From Candidatus Magasanikiibacteriota bacterium (GTDB taxonomy: Bacteria > Patescibacteriota > Patescibacteriia > Magasanikbacterales > GWA2-37-8): a stretch of 36,643 bases of DNA. A program made the position numbers and the translations under genes. The notes beneath the pieces are model-generated. The model was not told the origin of the DNA. It worked only from the letters and a program-made list of their open reading frames with translations, and searched no databases. This document shows positions 10,819 through 28,260 of this stretch, in pieces. The stretch lies in contig CALRIA010000005.1 in assembly GCA_943359595.1 (NCBI GenBank), positions 1 to 36,643 on the forward strand. Direction: 5' to 3'. Each line of letters opens with the position of its first letter. Position 1 is the stretch's first letter.

Positions 10819-11223
10819 TTATTCAATGGGTTCAAGATAAAATTTTTCTTCTTCATCTTCTGGCAAACCAGACAAGTTTTCTTCACCAAAAGTTTGCTCA
10901 ACTTGACCAACTTCAAGTGGAATATTGGTTGTTTCCAAAACTGGTTCTGAAATTTTTTCTACTTCTTTTTTCGTATTATCTTCCCAACCTGGGATAGGCT
11001 GTCGTTTTTTTTGATCCTGCCAACGAGAAATATCATGGTTTAATTTATTTAACATATCCTCTTCTTCCAAGTTCTCTAGACAAGAAGTGTCGTTTAATAA
11101 GCTTTCATATTCATTTAGATTCATCAAGACCATGGTTTCGTCAGTTTCCTTATCCATTATTACAAACCTATCCCCAGTACGGCGAACTAATTTGATAATA
11201 CGATCCAATTGATTTTGTTTCAT
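10819..11223 (-). CDS. Hypothetical protein; N-terminus reminiscent of Phd/YefM-type sequence
   Basis: 134 aa ORF, MKQNQLDRIIKLVRRTGDRFVIMDKETDETMVLMNLNEYESLL; no toxin neighbour. Confidence 0.65.
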   Translation of the reverse strand: MKQNQLDRIIKLVRRTGDRFVIMDKETDETMVLMNLNEYESLLNDTSCLENLEEEDMLNKLNHDISRWQDQKKRQPIPGWEDNTKKEVEKISEPVLETTNIPLEVGQVEQTFGEENLSGLPEDEEEKFYLEPIE

Positions 11224-11291
11224 ATAATAATTAATTATGTTTTTATATTATACCTAAAAACGACAACTAGTCAACCTTTAATTTAAATAAT

Positions 11292-11394
11292 AAAAAATCG
11301 CTCAAGAAAGCGATTTTTTATTTTGCTCTAACCACAAATAATTGTGATTACAGTGTGTGCGCGCCAATCTACTCCTTTGAATTAGATGGCGCGC
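11292..11394 (-). ncRNA. Three-hairpin 3' element, copy A (HP1 11359-11394, HP2 in the linker, terminator 11292-11319)
   Basis: Minus strand: GCGCGCCAUCUA-AUUCAAAGGAG-UAGA(U)UGGCGCGC; AAUCACAA-UUAU-UUGUGGUU; AAAAAAUCGCU-UUCUUG-AGCGAUUUUUU; collinear with copy B. Confidence 0.7.
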
Positions 11395-11435
11395 GGTAAA
11401 GAGGAGGGAGGGCGATTGTTAACGATCGCTCTACT

Positions 11436-11654
11436 CTAGTTGACCGGAGCGAAGATCACGGGGCCAAACGGTCCACCTTCCCGCTTGCGCAGGTAGGCCG
11501 GACGATTCAGCACGCGCAGTTGCGCGCGAGTCGGTCCCGACCACCAGTCGGTGATGGCTGGAACACCTTGCGTCTTTGTCAGGCGCGAGTTGGGGGTGAA
11601 CGCCACCTCGCGAATAAAGAAACTACCATCCAACAAACGAAAGACAAGAGACAT
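11436..11654 (-). CDS. GC-rich small protein of unknown function (cassette A)
   Basis: MSLVFRLLDGSFFIREVAFTPNSRLTKTQGVPAITDWWSGPTRAQLRVLNRPAYLRKREGGPFGPVIFAPVN; GAGGGT upstream of ATG; own promoter. Confidence 0.55.
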   Translation of the reverse strand: MSLVFRLLDGSFFIREVAFTPNSRLTKTQGVPAITDWWSGPTRAQLRVLNRPAYLRKREGGPFGPVIFAPVN

Positions 11655-11712
11655 GTTAACCCTCACTTTGTCGGGTGAAAAAGGCTTGATAGCCCTGTCC
11701 CGAACGAATTAG

Positions 11713-11741
11713 ACTGTAGCACGGCTTAGCCAAAAAGTCAA
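11713..11741 (-). promoter_or_regulatory. Cassette A promoter
   Basis: TTGACT (11736-11741), 17-nt spacer, TACAGT (11713-11718) on minus strand. Confidence 0.65.
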
Positions 11742-11752
11742 TAGTGAACAAC

Positions 11753-11854
11753 AAAAAACCACTAATTAAGCGGTTTTTTATTGTATTCTGACTACAAATT
11801 ATTATAATCAAAATATGCGTGCGCCGAACTACTCCTTTGAATTAGTCGACGCAC
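11753..11854 (-). ncRNA. Three-hairpin 3' element, copy B (HP1 11819-11854, HP2 in the linker, terminator 11753-11779)
   Basis: Minus strand: GUGCGUCGACUA-AUUCAAAGGAG-UAGU(U)CGGCGCAC; GAUUAUAA-UAAU-UUGUAGUC; AAAAAACCGCU-UAAUU-AGUGGUUUUUU; same 39-nt spacing from HP1 to terminator as copy A. Confidence 0.7.
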
Positions 11855-11890: not shown

Positions 11891-12112
11891 TTAACGGCGA
11901 CGAGGACCACTACGCTGTACAATGCGCTGAGCGTTGGCAAGAGCAACCACGTGTTGCACCTGATAACGATAGTCACGCCGTTGCGCTAATGGGGGGGGCC
12001 ATGGACTGCTGACCGGAACCCGGACAAGATCCAGTTGCCGACAGATCAACGACGAAAGATTATACCCGCCCAAAAAAAACAGAAACGGCAACGGCAAATG
12101 AACAATTTTCAT
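11891..12112 (-). CDS. Small hypothetical protein (cassette B, second ORF)
   Basis: MKIVHLPLPFLFFLGGYNLSSLICRQLDLVRV...; strong SD AGGAGG 6 nt upstream of ATG; directly downstream of the 12151-12978 gene. Confidence 0.5.
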   Translation of the reverse strand: MKIVHLPLPFLFFLGGYNLSSLICRQLDLVRVPVSSPWPPPLAQRRDYRYQVQHVVALANAQRIVQRSGPRRR

Positions 12113-12150
12113 CAAAACCTCCTGGAATGAAAGATTGAACGTGCTGGCAC

Positions 12151-12978
12151 TTATTCAGTTGTCAACACACGTTCAGCGTTGAGATACCATTTGACAATCT
12201 CATAGAGCGAATCGCGTCCAACAAATGGGGATAGCCCATCACCATCCGTCCTAAACGCGAAACCAAGCAGATACGCAGCAATGGCCTCGGCCAGGCTCTC
12301 AGCAATTCCGACAAGTGAATTCGGCGGCAATTGGCCAGTAACTGGATCAAAGTAAGCGCCAGCATAGTGCGAGATTGGCGGGGCTGAATTGATTGCCGCC
12401 TCGGCCTCGCTGATGAACTCGAAAATACTTTTATTGCCAACCTGGTCAGAAACCAAGCGACAATTATCCGAGTTCCACATCTCCACATTGACAATGGAGT
12501 GAGCCAACTCATGAGCCAGACCTTCCAGATGAATGATTCGCCGAATTTCGGGCGCGACCAAATCTTGGATTTGAAATAGGACTGGATTCATTCTAAATCT
12601 ACTCCAGAATCTCGGCGGGAGATTCTCCACATCCACTTTGCTGGGTGCAATTGCCGTGGCAGAAATTGCCTTAGCAATATCCAATGTCGGCACAGGCTTC
12701 TCTTTGGTTGATGCCTGTGTAAACCATACCGAACGATCGAACGTGATTTTGTTGATCAACATGCGATTACGTGCTTTGAGTGGAAAAACCGCCAACACTC
12801 CTTGGATATCTGCCAACGTGAGCACATGAAGGCCGTGTGGATCCTCCAAGTAAAAACGTGGAGGACCGGCAAAATATTGAACAGGCATCGGCAAACGAGC
12901 CGTGAACATTTCAAGATTTGCCTCATACCACTGGATGGTTGGACCCATGTCAAAACCAGAAACTTTCTTGTTCTTCAT
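12151..12978 (-). CDS. GC-rich hypothetical protein with HELAH zinc-metallopeptidase-like motif (cassette B)
   Basis: MKNKKVSGFDMGPTIQWYEANLEMF...HLEGLAHELAHSIVNVEMW...; GGAG before the ATG at 12978. Confidence 0.75.
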   Translation of the reverse strand: MKNKKVSGFDMGPTIQWYEANLEMFTARLPMPVQYFAGPPRFYLEDPHGLHVLTLADIQGVLAVFPLKARNRMLINKITFDRSVWFTQASTKEKPVPTLDIAKAISATAIAPSKVDVENLPPRFWSRFRMNPVLFQIQDLVAPEIRRIIHLEGLAHELAHSIVNVEMWNSDNCRLVSDQVGNKSIFEFISEAEAAINSAPPISHYAGAYFDPVTGQLPPNSLVGIAESLAEAIAAYLLGFAFRTDGDGLSPFVGRDSLYEIVKWYLNAERVLTTE

Positions 12979-13039: not shown

Positions 13040-13068
13040 ATAATAACAAAAAAAATTAATAAAGTCAA
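13040..13068 (-). promoter_or_regulatory. Cassette B promoter
   Basis: TTGACT (13063-13068), 17-nt spacer, TATTAT (13040-13045) on minus strand. Confidence 0.75.
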
Positions 13069-14779: not shown

Positions 14780-14837
14780 GACCGCCCGTCACTTAAAATC
14801 ATAAACTAATTATAATCTTAAGTGAGTGCGGGCGGTC
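14780..14837 (-). terminator. Long-stem intrinsic terminator of cassette C
   Basis: Minus strand GACCGCCCG-CAC-TCACTTAA-loop-TTAAGTGA-CGGGCGGTC-TTTTGTTTTT (9+8 bp with 3-nt bulge). Confidence 0.75.
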
Positions 14838-14919: not shown

Positions 14920-15363
14920 TTACCCTATACCTGCGAAGAAGTGGTTGAGGTAAGCGAGACTGCGAGCGAGTTCTTCCTTCAGCTCGTCATAACCTTCTTG
15001 GCCGGCGTAGTAGGCGACCAAGCCGTGAAACTGCTGATGTCGAAACTCGACATAGTCAACCAAGATTGCCCGTGGCACTTCTTCCAATTCTTGCCTGAGC
15101 GTTTGCACACAACGCCCCTTTTGGCCGGCGCGCTGGACGAATTCGCGCACCTCATGACGCAGGATGTGGTCGCGAAACGCTTCCGGCACTTCCGCCGAGA
15201 TGAAGAGAAACGCGCTCTTGGGAAAGCCGACGAAGTACTTGAGGTCGGTCAATTCGGGATCGGGACTCAGAACGTGGTAGCCGTATTGAGCACCGTCTAC
15301 CTCGAGAACACCTTCCTCTACGATGAACGGTTTGGCCCAATCGGGCGGCTGCGAAATGAGCAT
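14920..15363 (-). CDS. GC-rich hypothetical protein (cassette C), contains HEVREF
   Basis: MLISQPPDWAKPFIVEEGVLEVDGAQYGYHVLSPDPELTDLKYFVGFPKSAFLFISAEVPEAFRDHILRHEVREF...; SD GGAGG 6 nt before ATG. Confidence 0.75.
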   Translation of the reverse strand: MLISQPPDWAKPFIVEEGVLEVDGAQYGYHVLSPDPELTDLKYFVGFPKSAFLFISAEVPEAFRDHILRHEVREFVQRAGQKGRCVQTLRQELEEVPRAILVDYVEFRHQQFHGLVAYYAGQEGYDELKEELARSLAYLNHFFAGIG

Positions 15364-25083: not shown

Positions 25084-26097
25084 ATGCTGATTTTTGCAAC
25101 TGTTGGCCACACTACACTTGCCGAAGACCAAATTAGAAAAATTGTATTAGCTGGTGCTGATGTAATTAGATATAATTTTGCTTATCGAAATATAAGTGAA
25201 AATATTGAATTGGTATGTACGGCTCAAAGAATAATCGAAGAATTAAATTCCTCAGCGCAAATTTTAATAGACTTTCCTCTAAACAAAATTCGTCTAGGAG
25301 ATTTTGATATAAAAATTTTTGCAGTAAGAGAAAATCAAGAATTAATTCTAAAGTCCGCGCCTTTCTCGCCAAATTGTTATGAATATATCCCGGTCGACAC
25401 TCAATTACTGGGACAAAAAGTATACGTTGATCAAACTATAACCATTGGGGATGGTGAAATATCGATGCAAGTGATTGAAATTTTAAATACCGACACCATT
25501 AAAGTAAAGATTTTAAATAATGGAGTAATAAATTACATCAAAACATTCAATTGCAAATATCGAATTTCTGAAGAAGTTATCTTAAAATTATACGACGAAA
25601 CGCTAGAAAAAATTAGTATGATCGGGCCTGACAAAATTGCCATATCTTTTATTAATTTTGAAACTAATGAAAAAATAAAACAATTAATTTTATCGAAAAA
25701 CATACAACCAAAAGTAATTATTAAAATTGAATACGGAATAAATGAAAGTGAACTAGAAAAAATTTGTTTAGATAATTTCTACAACGCTATTCTGATTGAT
25801 CGAGGTGAACTAGGAGTAAATGAACCGTTTGAAAAATTAGGTTATTATCAAGATTTAATCATCAAAACCGCCAAAAAATTCAATAAACGAATAATAGTAT
25901 CGACCCAAATTTTGGAAAGTACGATTTATAATTATATACCGTCACGCTCAGATATCAATGATTTAACTGAAATTATTCGCTCTGGAGTTGATGGAATAAT
26001 GTTTTGTATGGAAACATCTTCCTCCATACGGCCAGCTTATCCCATTTCAGTTGCAAAAAAAATTATTTTGGAAATACAGAGTCATAAAAAAATATGA
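25084..26097 (+). CDS. Divergent pyruvate-kinase-like TIM-barrel protein
   Basis: FATVGHTTLAEDQIRKIVLAGADVIRYNFAYRN; IKIEYGINESELEKI...AILIDRGELGVNEPFEKLGYYQDLIIKTAKKFNKRIIVSTQILES...PSRSDINDLTEIIRSGVDGIMFCMETS. Confidence 0.85.
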   Translation: MLIFATVGHTTLAEDQIRKIVLAGADVIRYNFAYRNISENIELVCTAQRIIEELNSSAQILIDFPLNKIRLGDFDIKIFAVRENQELILKSAPFSPNCYEYIPVDTQLLGQKVYVDQTITIGDGEISMQVIEILNTDTIKVKILNNGVINYIKTFNCKYRISEEVILKLYDETLEKISMIGPDKIAISFINFETNEKIKQLILSKNIQPKVIIKIEYGINESELEKICLDNFYNAILIDRGELGVNEPFEKLGYYQDLIIKTAKKFNKRIIVSTQILESTIYNYIPSRSDINDLTEIIRSGVDGIMFCMETSSSIRPAYPISVAKKIILEIQSHKKI

Positions 26098-27170
26098 CAC
26101 CTACAAAAAAAGTGCCCTCAATAACTGAATGGCTTTCGGAAATTAATTACAAACAACTGGACGTCTTTAGGCGCGAAGATGCCGAAAAACGCGATCGTTT
26201 AGAATTGTTAAACAAGATTATTGGATTACCCTATTTAAAAGCTTATAAATTTACACTATCTGAAGTGCTAAATCATAGTATACGATTTGAAAAATTATTA
26301 TCTGCATCTGGTAATACTAAATTTTTATTTAAACTTTTACCAACTTATTCAAAATTACCAAAATTACGTACTAGAGATAAAAATTTAAAACATTGTGTAC
26401 AGTGGCTAAAAAAACAGAAAATTGACGACGATAAATATAAAATTGAAATAGTCCCAATAGATAAAAATGAAAAAAATTCTGCGGTTTTTTGTGTTAACAA
26501 AAATGGAATATGGGGAGAGATAATCAACGGTCCAATTTGGAATTTCTCTAAAGGTACTTACAAAAAACAACCAACAATATTTTCTTTTGATTTTAAAAAT
26601 TGGTATTTTTCTAGTCATAACAAATTGACTGAAAAATTTATTAAAAAAGCGATCAAAAAAATAAAAATAAAAAAAAATAGCCAAGTTAAAGCCCTTAAAA
26701 ATAAAATCGATATTGAAATTACCTCCCAAAATTATTTACAAGGATACTTTGAATGTATCCAACGAAGTAATGATTTACTTTTTGTTGATTACAACCGACG
26801 TTTATTCAAAATAATTGAAAAATCGCTAACAACTATTTCGCATGGGATTGATCTGTTGCACGGAACCTGTCTAGGCCCAGGAAAGGCTACTGGCAAAGCC
26901 GTGATAATCAAAAATTTAAATAAAAAAATAAATTTCCCAAATGGCTCAATTATAATATGTCACACCGCAAATTTTGAAATGTTACCTTATCTTAAAAAAG
27001 CTAGCGGCATAATAACTGAACGTGGTGCTGTGTTATCCCATGCAGCTATTGTCTGTAGAGAATTAAATATGCCATTTGTAGCCCATGTAAAAAACGCTAC
27101 TGAAAAGATAAAAAATGGTCAAAAAATTTTTATTGATGCTGATAAAGGGATTGTTAAAATAATAAAATAG
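26094..27170 (+). CDS. Protein with C-terminal PEP-utilising-enzyme mobile (phosphohistidine swivel) domain, paralog 1
   Basis: ASGIITERGAVLSHAAIVCRELNMPFVAHVKNATEKIKNGQKIFIDADKGIVKII; start overlaps upstream stop (ATGA). Confidence 0.85.
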   Translation: MTPTKKVPSITEWLSEINYKQLDVFRREDAEKRDRLELLNKIIGLPYLKAYKFTLSEVLNHSIRFEKLLSASGNTKFLFKLLPTYSKLPKLRTRDKNLKHCVQWLKKQKIDDDKYKIEIVPIDKNEKNSAVFCVNKNGIWGEIINGPIWNFSKGTYKKQPTIFSFDFKNWYFSSHNKLTEKFIKKAIKKIKIKKNSQVKALKNKIDIEITSQNYLQGYFECIQRSNDLLFVDYNRRLFKIIEKSLTTISHGIDLLHGTCLGPGKATGKAVIIKNLNKKINFPNGSIIICHTANFEMLPYLKKASGIITERGAVLSHAAIVCRELNMPFVAHVKNATEKIKNGQKIFIDADKGIVKIIK

Positions 27171-27177
27171 TCTAATT

Positions 27178-28260
27178 ATGAGCATCACCGAAATTATCGA
27201 CAATCAAATGCCTTCTTTGACTGAATGGTTAGAGAAAATTAATTTCATCCAAACTGAAGAATTTCGCAAGGAAGACAACACCAAACGCGATCGTTTGGAA
27301 ATTTTATTTCAAGAAATTGGTTTGGAATATGATCGCCCCGCCAGATTTATGGCCAGAGATTTAAAAGACAACACTTCAATATTTAAAAATTACTTAGATC
27401 AAGCTGGTGAGGAACAATGTGCTTTGCGTTTAATTCCAATTTCTGCTGGATTGCCAAAATTACGAGTACGTGGAAAAACTCTCAGAGAAAATTTGGTATG
27501 GTTTAAAAATCAAGATATTGATGCCGAACAATACAAAGTAGAAGTTGTGCCACACAGTGATTATTGCAAATATTCCGCTACTTTCCTAATTAACAATCAC
27601 GGTATTTTAGGAGAAATTATAAAGGGATTGCATTGGCAATTAACTCAAGGATTACATCAGGAACCGCCCATTTATTTTAGCTTTGATTTTCATAATTGGA
27701 CATTTTCTGCACTAGACAAAGAAGCTGAAAGATGGATTAAACAGGCAGTTGCCTCCCTTATAATCACACCAGACAAACAAAAAGATATCCAGAAAAAATT
27801 TGAGGCGGAATTTACCAGCCAAGGATATTTAAAAGGGTATTTTGAATTTGTTGTTTGGCCAAATGATAAAATTTTATTTATCGATTATAACCGTACTATT
27901 TATCGTTCATTAAAAGATGTTAAATCAAACGCTATACACTCAGACCTAGAATTATCAGGCATCTGCGCTAGCGCTGGAAAAGTATCTGGCACAGCTAAGA
28001 TAGTTTTGGATCCAAAAAATACTGACTTTTCTGAAGGAGATATTTTGATTTGTGCGATGACTCTAATTGATTATGTGCCACTCATGAAAAAAGCGGCTGG
28101 AATCATCACCGAACAAGGCAATATTTTGTCCCATGCGGCCATTGTCGCGCGTGAATTACACAAACCTTGTCTGGTGGGGGTAAAAAATGTATTGAGACAA
28201 ATTAAAAGCGGACAAAAGATTACTTTAGACGCAGACAATAGCCAGATAATTTTGAACTAA
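27178..28260 (+). CDS. Protein with C-terminal PEP-utilising-enzyme mobile (phosphohistidine swivel) domain, paralog 2
   Basis: AAGIITEQGNILSHAAIVARELHKPCLVGVKNVLRQIKSGQKITLDADNSQIIL; N-terminal half collinear with paralog 1. Confidence 0.87.
   Translation: MSITEIIDNQMPSLTEWLEKINFIQTEEFRKEDNTKRDRLEILFQEIGLEYDRPARFMARDLKDNTSIFKNYLDQAGEEQCALRLIPISAGLPKLRVRGKTLRENLVWFKNQDIDAEQYKVEVVPHSDYCKYSATFLINNHGILGEIIKGLHWQLTQGLHQEPPIYFSFDFHNWTFSALDKEAERWIKQAVASLIITPDKQKDIQKKFEAEFTSQGYLKGYFEFVVWPNDKILFIDYNRTIYRSLKDVKSNAIHSDLELSGICASAGKVSGTAKIVLDPKNTDFSEGDILICAMTLIDYVPLMKKAAGIITEQGNILSHAAIVARELHKPCLVGVKNVLRQIKSGQKITLDADNSQIILN

Follow-up and report, generated by a model that had tools for sequence, protein, structure and literature searches.

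Two minus-strand elements in the analysed DNA (the window, 36,643 nt), A at 11394–11292 and B at 11854–11753, were each composed of three hairpins, and each closed a GC-rich unit in a genome of 36% GC. From 5′ to 3′, each element contained a GC-rich hairpin (HP1), an AT-rich hairpin (HP2), and an intrinsic terminator (HP3). The reading favoured here, with somewhat better than even confidence, is that the element is the 3′ untranslated mRNA tail of a GC-rich accessory gene, in which HP3 would terminate transcription and HP1 and HP2 would block 3′-to-5′ exonucleases, leaving the transcript long-lived. Similar tails close most other fast-changing GC-rich genes of the genome, and their role is probably to end the mRNA and to shield it from decay. 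This reading replaced that of a separate RNA gene, and a 3′-UTR role was the best of the three options of the first-pass annotation, which had also considered an RNA- or ribosome-binding site and the end of a mobile cassette.

The HP1 hairpins of A (11359..11394, minus strand) and B (11819..11854, minus strand) were both 36 nt long, with a 12-bp stem, a single bulged U on the 3′ side, the same 11-nt loop AUUCAAAGGAG, and a stability of about −20 kcal/mol. The HP1 stems of A and B differed by the pair changes C-G/U-A, C-G/U-G, A-U/G-C, and U-A/A-U. HP2 was an AT-rich 8-bp hairpin in both copies, AAUCACAA-UUAU-UUGUGGUU in A (11330..11349, minus strand) and GAUUAUAA-UAAU-UUGUAGUC in B (11790..11809, minus strand). 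HP3 (11289..11322 in A and 11749..11782 in B, both minus strand) had the anatomy of an intrinsic terminator, a G+C-containing hairpin followed directly by a U run at the end of the transcription unit, and termination at HP3 is very likely from this anatomy. The two copies were aligned without gaps as far as the terminator loop. The folding energies of A and B were −49.6 and −48.4 kcal/mol, with z values of −10.8 and −10.0, respectively, and none of 200 shuffles was equally stable. On re-reading, the positions, strand, 36-nt HP1, bulged U, and pair changes listed in the first-pass annotation were all correct, its 8-bp HP2 and U-tract terminator were as described, the G-U pairs that it read in HP3 of copy B were present on the transcript strand, and its gap-free alignment held up to the terminator loop. 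It had recognised no known RNA family, and indeed no family of Rfam 15, tRNAs excepted, was found above the gathering threshold in the window or in the loci of six relatives; the sub-threshold matches were weak and aligned mainly to the terminator.

Both elements were located 3′ of GC-rich orphan ORFs, as had been proposed. Cassette A consisted of a 72-aa orphan gene (11436..11654, minus strand; 58% GC, GC3 0.67), with an orthologue at the same place in the sister species G001. A promoter-like site, TTGACT-17 nt-TACAGT (11713..11741, minus strand), was identified by reading, and its −35 element and neighbourhood were conserved in G001. The 5′ leader hairpin of cassette A (TCGGG..CCCGA enclosing GGCU..AGCC; 11671..11703, minus strand) was located upstream of the ribosome-binding site. 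Cassette B was composed of two orphan genes. The first, of 275 aa (12151..12978, minus strand), encoded a protein with a HELAH motif, zinc-peptidase-like by eye and without a Pfam match, and was preceded by a promoter-like site, TTGACT-17 nt-TATTAT (13040..13068, minus strand), also identified by reading. The second, of 73 aa (11891..12112, minus strand), had a frame that reached TTG at 12115 and was unrelated to gene A; the C-terminus of its protein, ANAQRI.QR..RR, was conserved in G001. Pfam likewise gave no match for the 72-aa protein, PHROG gave none for the 72-aa, 275-aa, and 73-aa proteins, and no viral relative of the 275-aa protein was found. Since the genes closed by A and B were non-homologous, the tail is, to judge from its position, a module that does not belong to any single gene family. 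The window contained another GC-rich orphan, the 147-aa gene of cassette C (14920..15363, minus strand), which had a homologue only in the congener G002 among 57 genomes. Its 3′ tail (14780..14837, minus strand) was nested, with a GC-rich terminator stem enclosing an AT-rich hairpin, followed by a U-tract.

Two other loci of the window were recorded separately. The ORF at 10819-11223 (minus strand) had a Phd/YefM-like antitoxin-type N-terminus (sub-threshold Pfam match) and a long acidic tail, with no adjoining toxin gene, and was conserved beside EF-Tu in G001 and G002. Two paralogous ORFs of 358 and 360 aa were found in tandem at 26094-28260 (plus strand), immediately downstream of a 346-aa pyruvate-kinase-like ORF, and their C-termini resembled a PEP-utilising swivelling domain.

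A covariance model was built from copies A and B and searched in the genome and its relatives. A and B were the only strong matches in the genome, and two more were found in G001, with 102 and 77 bits. A and its G001 counterpart A′ occupied the same place, with the same downstream gene and promoter, and were syntenic and vertically inherited. Over the four copies, 96.2% of the cells were paired, compared with at most 50% in slid-structure controls. Nine of 33 pairs, distributed over all three main helices, were changed on both sides, which was matched by none of 500 shuffles of this small set of four sequences, uncorrected for relatedness. G-U pairs accounted for 13 of 127 paired cells on the transcript strand; these would be A-C mismatches on the opposite strand, an asymmetry that favours folding as RNA or as same-strand DNA. 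The covarying structure reported earlier is therefore real and is read as RNA from these G-U pairs. The first-pass annotation had proposed this search and had held that a lack of further copies would speak against the element; since copies with extra covariation were found in a related genome, that objection does not apply.

The loop had been described as invariant, which was true between A and B and did not extend beyond them. The sister-genome orthologues contained the loops AUUCGAAGGAG and AUCCAAAGGAG, and more distant congeners retained only AAGGAG or GAGGGG. In three other congeners the element had diverged: its HP1 stem was a different one, and its HP2 was near-identical to that of copy B. 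In a set of 192 genomes sampled from the class, no genome outside the family reached E = 1e-6, and within the family only G020, with the same layout, did so; the AAGGAG-loop type thus appears, so far, to be confined to this genus (5 genomes). When viral and genome collections were scanned for exact 17-mers, the matches (3 and 6, respectively) were at chance level only, the HP2 pattern had no match in viral contigs, and blastn against phages gave only weak partial matches.

Dozens of islands of high GC content were present in the genome, each containing from one to a few ORFs. The tails of the other GC-rich genes differed in sequence, while the design of a GC-rich hairpin, an AT-rich hairpin, and a terminator recurred, and the median tail from stop codon to terminator was 120 nt. 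A 3′ tail with z < −3 was observed in 16 of 21 GC-rich genes vs. 12 of 82 AT-rich genes (P = 6e-7), with mechanical gene calls and, for GC-rich ORFs, a choice of start and strand made partly by eye; the tails of three of the 21 were unstructured. The sister genome, about half of which was covered, repeated this result (12 vs. 30 genes, P = 0.003). It was also in agreement with loci of other families, which were chosen by the model and so form a biased set. The bodies of the GC-rich ORFs showed slightly more structure than synonymous shuffles did, with a median z of −1.06 vs. −0.18 (P = 0.002). No description of such tails was found in the literature on Patescibacteria-like genomes. In addition, long AT-rich hairpins (15–20 bp) lacking a clear U-tract were observed upstream of many GC-rich genes (e.g., L068:7039-7170, L085:14830-14957, and L083:2680-2810), so hairpins may flank GC-rich units at both ends.

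In seven GC-rich orthologue pairs, GC3 was 0.50–0.72 in both sister species, and 46–61% of conserved residues had a changed codon, compared with a GC3 of 0.28 in AT-rich orthologue pairs and in the genome. The persistence of high GC3 despite this codon change suggests that the high GC content is maintained or, at the least, has not been lost across a divergence with heavy synonymous change, the changes being unpolarised in a comparison with no outgroup. When 13 GC-rich proteins were compared with Pfam, eight had no match, two had only sub-threshold matches, and three had a family (nucleoside phosphorylase-like, metallo-beta-lactamase-like, and uracil phosphoribosyltransferase-like). Homologues of two GC-rich proteins, searched in 57 relatives, were found in no genome and in one other genome, respectively; the GC-rich genes are therefore described, from these searches, as patchily distributed and mostly orphan.

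In the proposed mechanism, HP3 would end transcription as an intrinsic terminator, and HP1 and HP2, arranged in series upstream of it, would block 3′-to-5′ exonucleases. The short GC-rich transcript, which in the case of gene A also would begin with a 5′ leader hairpin, would thereby become durable, and in this genus the purine-rich AAGGAG loop may provide a further contact with the ribosome or a protein. Stable 3′ stems hinder PNPase but not RNase R. PNPase was present, and no RNB-family RNase R/II was detectable, in one draft genome (G000, estimated to be 100% complete), which amounts to a reduced complement of 3′ exonucleases. RNAs whose 3′ ends are structured are resistant to decay (PMC3997798). 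For these reasons, serial hairpins should make the transcripts durable, and we infer stabilisation by the tail. Stable conserved hairpins were located between the stop codon and the 3′ end, as in 3′ mRNA-stabilising elements. One strong terminator stem is usually enough to protect a 3′ end, and exonuclease blocking would leave the keeping of two additional hairpins unexplained. The conservation of the loop motif suggests a role beyond passive blocking.

An alternative is that the tail is a regulatory 3′-UTR element, whose AAGGAG loop in HP1 would be bound by a protein or by the 16S anti-Shine-Dalgarno sequence and would alter mRNA stability or localisation. AAGGAG or a close purine variant was kept in all seven congeneric copies as the HP1 stem changed completely, and AAGGRG was over-represented in the 3′ tails of GC-rich genes (8 observed vs. 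1.5 expected, 0 of 200 shuffles), several of these tails being interrelated. However, other GC-rich tails with the same layout lacked the motif, and no start codon was consistently placed after AAGGAG. CsrA is the best-known binder of GGA loops. A CsrA target hairpin was rejected: GGA was present in the loop, but CsrA was not found in the genome by PF02599. Regulation through the loop is considered unlikely. An ordinary long intrinsic terminator region, imported with recently acquired foreign GC-rich genes and carrying functionless extra hairpins, would agree with the orphan and patchy nature of the genes, and structured 3′ ends are common in bacteria. This explanation is very improbable: HP1 and HP2 contained compensatory changes, the GC3 of the orthologue pairs stayed high in both sister species despite the codon change, and the tail is not simply foreign DNA because HP2 and the terminator were of native AT-rich composition.

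The same patchiness could reflect a recombination or insertion site (attC-like or a transposon end) that folds as single-stranded DNA and moves GC-rich cassettes. Filled and empty sites between the sister genomes indicated that GC-rich units were gained or lost as whole transcription units, each bringing its own promoter and tail. In the G002 homologue of cassette C, the tail was cut exactly after the AT hairpin and another GC-rich gene came next, and at one empty G001 site the terminator was there and the gene was absent. On the other hand, the inspected insertion sites shared no breakpoint (none in six plus eight filled/empty site pairs), although two junctions, that of the G002 homologue of cassette C and one G000/G001 site, fell between the AT hairpin and the terminator. 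Furthermore, A and A′ were inherited vertically in synteny, and the covariation relied on G-U pairs on the transcript strand. An integron attC, as an instance of the cassette-end option of the first-pass annotation, was rejected: R″ RYYYAAC and R′ GTTRRRY boxes were absent from all four copies on both strands, and none of 57 relatives had an integron integrase above the TIGR02249 cut-off, the matches being weaker ones to general tyrosine recombinases. Movement by another recombinase is not supported, and a mobile-cassette end is quite improbable overall. At G002:C84:7046-8137 (L052), the GC arm GGCGAGCGGTTTT that ended the second GC-rich gene could pair with ACCGCTCGC of the cut tail, and the locus looks like an insertion into the tail or a shared terminator. 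Separately, a 24-bp palindrome, TTTGTATAGACTAGTGTATACAAA, was observed at G001:C37:13427 and 13926 (L174) and at G000:C3:70613 and 70738, and an extra G001 copy flanked an inserted GC-rich cassette. It was rejected as an att/dif insertion mechanism because 45 of 57 relatives contained it, frequently as two copies separated by about 100 bp and sometimes beside the DnaA-box-like TTATCCACA; it looks like the operator of a regulator.

The reading as a terminating and protective mRNA tail matters because orphan genes that evolve fast and greatly exceed their genome in GC content are usually dismissed as recent foreign DNA. The persistence of GC-richness and folded ends between species suggests that the mRNA itself is under selection. 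If this is correct, the tails would provide a sequence-based means of finding such genes throughout the order, and a testable case for gene-by-gene mRNA durability in bacteria with a reduced RNase set. More speculatively, and as a tentative proposal only, this order of small AT-rich bacteria may keep a special set of genes in which selection acts on the entire transcript to make it GC-rich and structured (leader hairpin, structured ORF, GC hairpin, AT hairpin, and terminator). These genes would form a durable-mRNA reserve for accessory proteins that evolve fast. The tail types would be family-specific, the AAGGAG-loop type of this genus being one example, and a dedicated factor might recognise them.

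When the elements were compared with known systems, HP3 resembled an intrinsic (Rho-independent) terminator in its stem and U-tract at the 3′ end of a gene, whereas here two more conserved, covarying hairpins preceded it at fixed spacing. The 3′ mRNA-stabilising stem-loops (REP/BIME downstream of malE and PNPase-protecting terminator stems) share the serial hairpins between stop codon and 3′ end, which should block 3′-to-5′ exonucleases. However, REPs are short dispersed palindromes mobilised by RAYT transposases, while here the stem sequence was gene-specific, the layout mixed GC and AT, and the hairpins were tied to GC-rich genes; REP/BIME requires many near-identical dispersed copies and was rejected with only two strong copies in the genome. 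As in the integron attC, a hairpin conserved in structure and variable in sequence was located 3′ of unrelated accessory genes, but the elements had no R′/R″ boxes, integron integrase was absent, each gene had a native promoter and terminator, and the loop was conserved instead of the stem ends. The STAB-SD of Bacillus thuringiensis cry mRNA is likewise a Shine-Dalgarno-like sequence not used for translation start; it lies unpaired in the 5′ UTR, whereas the present motif is located in a hairpin loop of the 3′ UTR.
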